Part shown: positions 5,203 through 43,837 of the stretch, in pieces
Layout: each line of letters begins with the position of its first letter
How positions within the stretch are numbered: position 1 is the first letter of the stretch
NCBI GenBank assembly: GCA_947367795.1
Contig: CANBER010000005.1
Coordinates: 1 to 50,048 of the forward strand
Length of the DNA stretch: 50,048 nucleotides
Reading direction: 5' to 3'
Origin: an uncultured Candidatus Saccharibacteria bacterium
Lineage (GTDB): Bacteria; Patescibacteriota; Saccharimonadia; Saccharimonadales; Saccharimonadaceae
Program-made: the position numbers and the translations under genes
The notes under the pieces: generated by a model
Databases searched by the model: none
What the model saw: only the letters and a program-made list of their open reading frames with translations
What the model was told of the DNA's origin: nothing

Positions 5203-5426
5203 TCCTTCGTCCGTAGTGGAGATGTGATGTTGCTGTCAGGCGCCTTTAGAGATGCTGGGCAGTATGGTGACTTTTGGTCTGTAACGGTGCAAAATTTCTT
5301 GTCCAACACTAGTGCGAATGCCTACTATTTGATATTTAGTGCTGGAGGATTGGACCCGTCGCATGAACCGAGTGCGCGTTGGTATGGTTACCCCATCCGC
5401 TGCCTAGCCTATTAGTTTATATATAG
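5203..5426 (+). pseudogene. FISUMP-like variable cassette 1 (orphan C-terminal domain fragment)
   Basis: A 224-bp unit begins with TCCTTCGTCCGTAGTGG, encodes 70 codons from SFVRSG to PIRCLAY and a TAG stop, and continues 11 bp past the stop (TTTATATATAG). The pattern (FVRSG, W-S, AYYL-F, DPS, RW-G-PIRCLAY) matches the C-terminal end of the Fibrobacter succinogenes major paralogous (FISUMP/TIGR02145) surface domain. There is no N-terminal part, signal peptide or ATG; a TTG-started frame from 5185 is unlikely to be a gene. It is the most divergent of three equal-length copies in the window (others at 5589 and 43593), differing also at silent sites in the middle while both ends are identical. 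It is read as a silent cassette. Confidence 0.75.
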
Positions 5427-5624
5427 CTATAGTAGGCTTAGTTCCTCTTCTCTTCGATCGAGGTGGCGCTCTCAAAATCGAATCCCTCGCTATGCTCGGG
5501 CCGTGATTTTGACCTGCGTCAGCCTTAGGCGACGGCCTGACGCGACGCGGACCGAGAAAAGCCTTAACCTTACTTACATAATCCATCACTATATATAAAC
5601 TAATAGGCTAGGCAGCGGATGGGG
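5391..5624. repeat. 36-bp perfect inverted repeat flanking a 162-bp structured segment
   Basis: The conserved 3' ends of cassettes 1 (5391-5426) and 2 (5589-5624) face each other and are identical over 36 bp, from CCCCATCCGC to TTTATATATAG. The segment between them (5427-5588) has no gene but contains its own complementary pairs (TCAAAATC/GATTTTGA and GCGTCAG/CTGACGC). Homologous recombination between the arms could invert it, and the transcript would fold into a very long hairpin. Confidence 0.8.
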
Positions 5625-5812
5625 AAACCGTCCCAACGATTGTCCGGGCCGTCCGACGGGTGGACGCCAGACGCACCGAAGCCGAGGTAGTACGCGGTAG
5701 CAGAAGTAACAGAGGCGAACGCCACGGAAATTGAGCTCCAACCGTAACCAGAGATGCCGAAGGCCCTCAGAGAACCGTAGTACAGATGGACGTACCCACT
5801 ACGGACGAAGGA
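5589..5812 (-). pseudogene. FISUMP-like variable cassette 2 (orphan C-terminal domain fragment)
   Basis: This is a 224-bp unit on the minus strand with the same ends as cassette 1. The 70 codons run SFVRSGYVHLYYGSLRAFGI, then SGYGWSSISV, ATAYYLGF, HPSDGPDNRW and GFPIRCLAY-stop. It shares GYGWSSISV, PSxGPDxRW and most silent sites with cassette 3 at 43593, but many first and second codon positions differ. No start codon or N-terminal domain lies upstream. The sequence before it is an AT-rich gap leading to the divergent racemase-like gene. It is likely a silent donor or variable repeat for a full-length surface protein encoded elsewhere. Confidence 0.75.
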
Positions 5813-43466: not shown

Positions 43467-43563
43467 ACAGTTTACGTTTTTGAAAAACGTAAGGTAGTTT
43501 GATGGTCAATAACAGGGGTAGGGTGTGAAAAAACAGTTTACGTTTTTCAAAAACGTAAGGTAA
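43467..43563. repeat. Duplicated hairpin element
   Basis: Two near-identical copies of TTACGTTTTT-N-AAAAACGTAA (43472-43492 and 43538-43558) within longer direct repeats starting ACAG and ending AAGGTA. The central base differs (G versus C). On the minus strand the cassette-side copy is followed by ACTGTTTTTT, like a terminator. They lie between the FISUMP cassette and the GH25 promoter. Confidence 0.8.
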
Positions 43564-43592: not shown

Positions 43593-43816
43593 CTATATAT
43601 AAACTAATAGGCTAGGCAGCGGATGGGGAAACCGAGCCAACGAGAGTCTGGGCCGCCCGACGGGTTGACGCCAGACGTATAGAAGGCGAGGTCGTACGCG
43701 CTAGCAGAAGTAATTTGGTCAAGCGTCACAGAGATTGAGCTCCAGCCGTAACCATAGATGCCGAAGTTCCTCAGAGAACCGTAATTCAGAGGGATGTCCC
43801 CACTACGGACGAAGGA
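43593..43816 (-). pseudogene. FISUMP-like variable cassette 3 (orphan C-terminal domain fragment)
   Basis: This is a 224-bp unit with ends identical to cassettes 1 and 2, including the 36-bp 3' end. The 70 codons begin SFVRSGDIPLNYGSLRNFGI and end RWLGFPIRCLAY-stop. Compared with cassette 2 about 20 codons differ, nearly all replacing amino acids, while only a few silent changes occur and there are no indels. It lies 22 nt after the C39-like gene, with no start codon. It is a silent or variable cassette 38 kb from the other two. Confidence 0.75.
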
Positions 43817-43837
43817 TAGAGGTGAGTTTGTGCGAAT

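Follow-up and report, generated by a model that had tools for sequence, protein, structure and literature searches.

In our view the cassettes described here are probably variable repeats that belong to one diversity-generating retroelement (DGR) and form a silent archive, lying between genes, for one gene encoding a FISUMP-domain surface protein, with which they exchange by gene conversion. The window, meaning the whole stretch of 50,048 nucleotides that was analysed, is contig 5 of a Saccharibacteria MAG of 860,540 bp in 38 contigs (hereafter the window genome). It holds three such cassettes, which the original prediction had taken either for a donor pool serving an expressed surface gene or for variable repeats of a retroelement with its reverse transcriptase (RT) elsewhere; these were posed as alternatives, and we find both supported at once.

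Results

Three orphan cassettes in the window

The cassettes, their conserved ends and a flanking remnant are as follows (differences are counted against the template repeat):

5203..5426, + strand: cassette 1, an old and diverged orphan variable repeat of the DGR (67 non-A and 20 A differences)
5203..5219, + strand: conserved 17-bp head of cassette 1, common to the template repeat; 5' homology
5391..5426, + strand: conserved 36-bp tail of cassette 1 (CCCCATCCGCTG, CLAY, stop, then TTTATATATAG)
5589..5812, - strand: cassette 2, a young orphan variable repeat of the DGR (6 non-A and 19 A differences)
5796..5812, - strand: conserved head of cassette 2
5589..5624, - strand: conserved tail of cassette 2
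43593..43816, - strand: cassette 3, an orphan variable repeat of the DGR of intermediate age (21 non-A and 18 A differences)
43800..43816, - strand: conserved head of cassette 3
43593..43628, - strand: conserved tail of cassette 3
43817..43826, - strand: remnant of a gene-like coding 5' flank at cassette 3 (CTCACCTCTA; full form TATAATATAGCCTCACCTCCTCTA, in frame Y N I A S P P L)

As had been described, the units at 5203-5426 (+), 5589-5812 (-) and 43593-43816 (-) are each 224 bp long and free of indels, lack a start codon and the N-terminal part of the protein, and have identical ends, with TCCTTCGTCCGTAGTGG as the first 17 bp and a last 36 bp that includes 11 bp beyond the TAG. Within this tail CCCCATCCGCTG is also found in the template, at an IMH-like position, and TTTATATATAG is absent from it. 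Cassettes 2 and 3, reported to differ at about 20 codons, differ at 32 nucleotides that fall in about 24 codons and change 20 amino acids. Cassette 1 had been counted simply as a third copy; this holds for its length and ends, but its non-A differences identify it as an old, diverged member of the set.

Cassettes 1 and 2 are arranged as an inverted pair, tail to tail (5308-5426 / 5589-5707). Close tail-to-tail pairs number eight in the window genome, and the sister species G043 has 11 close head-to-head pairs as well as tandem arrays of up to five cassettes. Two perfect palindromes, TTACGTTTTT(G/C)AAAAACGTAA, lie just past the tail of cassette 3 (43472-43492 and 43538-43558), and similar palindromes in the window genome all stand 195-342 bp from a cassette head (8/8, in sequence that was itself selected around cassettes). 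A search of Rfam returned only two tRNAs in the window and no match at the DGR locus.

A reverse transcriptase, its template and the adenine signature

The retroelement reading placed an RT outside the window and expected a template copy with A at the variable positions, and both are present on another contig. The window genome carries one RT gene (C9:33781-34929, RVT_1, 383 aa), with the template repeat 343 bp downstream of it (C9:35272-35475). The best PDB match of the RT is 8ub7 ('Reverse transcriptase', E 1.7e-23), from a series that we take to represent the BPP-1 DGR RT. Its motifs are IGNLTSQ and YVDD, and a motif of the form (I/V/L)GxxxSQ is the mark of DGR RTs (PMC3521204). The template is an adenine-rich copy of the cassettes in which nearly all variable codons are AAC or AAT (SFVRSGNVNLNNGSLRNFGINGYGWSS...NLNFNASGVNPSNGPNNRWNGFPIRCL) and 14 of 60 codons encode Asn; it has the head and CCCCATCCGCTG in common with the cassettes, whose last 20 bp it does not have. 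Upstream of the RT is a frame of 95 residues, similar in size to the accessory protein Avd, that had no Pfam or NCBIfam match over the cut-off. The genome with most cassettes (G171, 146 matches) has an intact RT but, over C2:94000-99500 (L239), no adenine-rich template; its template may lie beyond the contig end or may have been lost.

We compared 44 complete, ungapped cassettes of the window genome with the template, and defined as young the 11 with at most 12 non-A differences. In these young cassettes 212/418 A sites are changed (51%) against 70/1782 other bases (3.9%), the adenines having become G, T or C in similar numbers. G043, which has its own RT and template, gives the same picture over 19 young cassettes (360/855 A sites, or 42%, against 136/3021 others, or 4.5%), and the Fisher p values for A against non-A change are about 1e-113 and 1e-152 for the two genomes, respectively. 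Picking young cassettes by a low non-A count does favour this contrast. Across all 44 cassettes the A-site differences remain at 14-26 of 38 throughout and the other differences range from 2 to 73. From the adenine-specific differences we infer that the cassettes are DGR variable repeats, albeit intergenic ones without start or N-terminus. Several marks of a DGR are thus met, namely the RT of (I/V/L)GxxxSQ type, the nearby template with adenines at variable codons and the adenine-specific differences between template and repeats. A variable repeat inside a target gene is seen for the G043 gene and not for nearly all of the cassettes, the 3' end of the gene in the window genome being unassembled.

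These data could also describe a multi-target DGR without an archive, in which the RT retrohomes into each orphan and the cassettes are by-products or decoys that are open only because the template is open. Its appeal is that the cassettes keep both homing ends (the head and the CCCCATCCGCTG that they have in common with the template) and that the adenine changes of young cassettes are mostly independent. We regard it as unlikely and already strained, on account of the old cassettes and of the gene copies considered below.

A genome-wide library of start-less copies

With at most two mismatches, the 17-bp head occurs 69 times in the window genome, one occurrence being the template repeat, and the reversed control pattern does not occur there at all; given 69 matches against 0, the roughly 68 head-bearing orphan cassettes of this 860-kb genome are not due to chance. 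A search with a profile of the cassette protein gave 75 matches in the same genome, although such counts also include the template, full genes and perhaps contig ends that are duplicated. Moreover, many contigs end in a cassette, as is to be expected of repeats that exceed the assembly k-mer, and the true count may therefore differ somewhat.

None of the cassettes in the window genome has the N-terminal part of the protein. ORFs of 150 aa or more make up 76% of the bases in G043, yet 66/67 cassettes there fall outside them, and many cassettes have a stop codon directly 5' of the head, which rules out translation initiated upstream of them. The library accordingly has the silent-cassette feature of multiple partial copies without a start and with conserved ends, intergenic in G043; the lack of starts is observed, and the absence of promoters is not shown.

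The TATAATATAGCCTCACCTCCTCTA flank precedes the head in 29/69 copies of the window genome and is kept in part in 12 more. It represents coding flank of a full-length FISUMP-type gene, absent from the template; its YNIASPPL matches YNIA..PL in full genes. Insertion of template cDNA was considered as the origin of all cassettes and rejected, since the template has neither the gene-like tails nor the 5' flank that is found, full or partial, in 41/69 copies. In G043 roughly a dozen cassettes (e.g. at C4:14158 and C9:33325) have, immediately 5' of the head, a repeat of about 30 bp with an internal inverted repeat, TTCAAnTTGAACCCGTATAGnCTATAC(T/G)(A/G)G, and this element is possibly tied to their dispersal.

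Gene-like flanks missing from the template would equally be left by one-way archiving, in which variable repeats leave the expressed gene for silent sites and never return, so that the library is a fossil record. This we hold to be quite improbable, for reasons that begin with the coding state of the cassettes.

Diverged cassettes remain open

No in-frame stop was found in any of the 92 complete cassettes of the window genome and G043. At least 40 non-A differences are present in 40 of the 92, and random placement would give about 34 with stops; pN/pS in the scaffold codons is 0.44-0.62. Open frames in diverged copies, combined with pN/pS of about 0.5, argue that cassettes pass through an expressed state. 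Rewriting from one template cannot yield old cassettes (40-78 non-A differences) that are stop-free with such a ratio, which counts against the multi-target account, and diverged silent copies with an open frame under purifying selection need a return to expression, which one-way archiving does not allow. We dropped the unmutated scaffold adenines as proof of purifying selection, since most of them follow a T and the context preference of the RT could explain them. Several cassette matches in G170 have one stop codon, unlike those of the window genome and G043; decay of that library could explain this, as could a position of the stop at the 3' junction.

The presumed target gene carries a cassette copy

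The gene presumed to be the target of the cassettes encodes a secreted FISUMP protein that ends in the conserved block of the cassettes; its expression is inferred from an intact frame and a signal. The window genome encodes full-length FISUMP proteins that have an N-terminal membrane segment, and the gene for one of them, on C19, runs into the contig start about 50 codons short of where its variable region is expected. The full-length gene with the same end block that the prediction looked for was found in sister species, whose orthologues reach into or through the variable region: ...YNIAREPLYFVRSG... (G024, complete), ...YNIAKAPLYFVRSG... (G171, complete through the region) and ...YNIAGAPLHFVRSG... 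(G043, cut within it). The match to the FISUMP family in Pfam/NCBIfam is below cut-off only, and the AlphaFold model of the region, which bears on the C-type lectin fold of DGR target proteins, is of very low confidence (pLDDT 34). A 612-aa frame (G173:C19) was rejected as the expressed target, being a fusion with an unrelated downstream frame. We also observed that the last ~77 bp of C15 (G000:C15:24952-25028) are identical to the start of C19 (G000:C19:1-77, reverse complement), inside the FISUMP gene and with different flanks; this reflects either a junction in the assembly graph or another, partial copy of the gene's 3' region.

With the gene's variable region unassembled in the window genome, exchange was seen only in G024 and G171, the two genomes with an assembled end, in each of which we used the variable region of the complete gene as the query. 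In G024 this region (C27) is identical to exactly one orphan cassette (C19) over 212/212 bp, and in G171 (C2) to exactly one (C4) over 199/199 bp. In both, identity runs from cassette head to tail with unrelated flanks, and the remaining cassettes match the gene mainly at the conserved ends. A gene carrying a cassette copy, the other feature of silent-cassette systems, is hence met in two species, with expression of the gene inferred. The identical blocks contain 39 and 49 adenines, none of them changed; the copy was therefore not made by a mutagenic RT, and we rejected the DGR RT as the route of copying between cassette and gene. A gene region that equals one cassette without adenine changes is also at odds with the multi-target account. 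One-way archiving is served as well by this identity as is return, since a recent outward copy would look the same; the shared G024 and G171 regions, however, look diverged and not like fresh DGR output, a judgement made without a template for either genome.

G043 shows the other route. The first 86 bp of its gene variable region have four differences from the template, all at adenines, which marks it as a fresh DGR product, written directly into the gene. Both routes, cassette exchange and direct DGR writing, thus appear to be present in the clade, given the gene that equals a cassette in G024 and G171 and the A-only template derivative in G043. Exchange among the cassettes themselves is modestly suggested by runs of mutated A-site states that they share in modest excess over a shuffled null (9 pairs against 1.6, and 13 against 2.2) and by identical cassettes that occupy separate sites in G043.

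Identical blocks and contig-end copies might also arise from collapsed or mis-joined MAG repeats or a mixture of strains. Many contigs do end within cassettes, contig ends share cassette starts of 77-79 bp, and the four named relatives are MAGs; G024 is 7% contaminated, with its gene copy 31 bp from a contig end. G171, however, is free of both problems, and since its gene and donor cassette lie inside long contigs, mis-assembly is unlikely there. The window cassettes, too, are inside long contigs with distinct flanks, G043 cassettes are mostly at intergenic sites in contig interiors, and nine independent genomes agree, so that an artefact has very little left to recommend it.

Distribution in the genus and family

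The many further cassettes that a donor pool predicts were found in each of these nine genomes, of 0.8-1.2 Mb each, at 69-146 profile matches (75, 77, 83, 125, 86, 70, 146, 69 and 87). Six other genomes of the genus with a related RT have 0-4. RTs of this DGR type occur in 95/174 genomes of the genus, and, among the matches listed, nearly all remaining genomes have few cassette matches and only 3/60 genera of the family have any at a stricter cut-off. In G031 (L149) the RT, the template and a FISUMP gene with a C-terminal variable repeat stand side by side, a canonical arrangement that is probably the ancestral state.

Discussion

The donor pool for a surface gene gains its support from the dozens of additional cassettes and from sister genes with a cassette-identical variable region, although neither expression nor direction is shown. 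For the silent archive that we favour we propose the following steps. The RT would copy the adenine-rich template with random adenine changes, a step that the sequences themselves demonstrate, and so produce variant forms of the target's final ~70 codons. These variable repeats would then be dispersed, without a start codon, to about 70-146 intergenic sites per genome, sometimes with 24-27 bp of the upstream coding sequence of the gene and usually with the gene-like 3' end that the template is missing; the dispersal is evident and its mechanism is not. Finally, a whole cassette would be copied unmutated between archive and gene, by homologous recombination or gene conversion ending at the conserved ends, an exchange that identity demonstrates in two species and whose direction is inferred. 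Besides inventing new variants, the cell could in this way change its surface protein to one that is already in store. That this serves host attachment, phage escape or recognition is no more than an inference.

We further lean, with rather less assurance than for the archive itself, towards a two-tier surface system in which the mutagenic RT does the inventing and variants that have been tested are kept by the lineage in a silent library, heritable and spread over the genome, from which gene conversion recalls them. If true, invention and memory would be combined in one locus family. DGRs are known to overwrite their target, so that each new variant costs the cell the one before it, however good. 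An archive that keeps DGR products and exchanges them with the gene would solve this problem; it would also join two kinds of diversification that have been regarded as distinct. The system is found in episymbiotic Saccharibacteria, whose means of host recognition and phage evasion are largely unknown, and the library is a visible share of an otherwise reduced genome.

Similar to described DGRs (BPP-1 Mtd, Treponema TvpA, CPR/DPANN), the element has an SQ-motif RT, an adjacent adenine-rich template and adenine-specific change, and it targets the 3' end of a surface-type gene. In those systems, however, the variable repeats lie within genes, whereas here one RT is accompanied by about 70-146 repeats that are nearly all orphan and intergenic. 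DiGReF lists at most four variable repeats per DGR, nearly all in ORFs (PMC3521204), and the largest case that we found is Thiohalocapsa PB-PSB1 with 9 DGRs, 21 variable repeats and 15 targets (PMC10907252). Remote targets were outside the detection of Roux et al. (PMC8144416), and surveys confined to the RT neighbourhood miss most of the repeats in the present system. We found no report of a DGR with an orphan repeat library, silent cassettes or FISUMP in the open-licence literature, to which our search was limited. Compared with canonical FISUMP-targeting DGRs of the same genus such as that of G031, the RT is related (57% identical) and the variable repeat is likewise at the C-terminus of a FISUMP gene, but G031 has 3 profile matches against about 70 or more in the cassette-rich genomes.

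Antigenic variation from silent cassettes is familiar from Neisseria (pilS to pilE), Borrelia vlsE, Anaplasma msp2 and Treponema tprK, in which the donors diversify through ordinary mutation and recombination. With these the present system has in common start-less partial copies, conserved ends, a variable middle and a gene that holds one copy (promoter loss is not shown here). The likeness to pilin-type silent loci rests on identity and constraint, and we do not claim antigenic variation. What sets the present system apart is that a mutagenic reverse transcriptase supplies the variants, and that the cassettes are scattered over the whole genome of an ultra-small Saccharibacterium.
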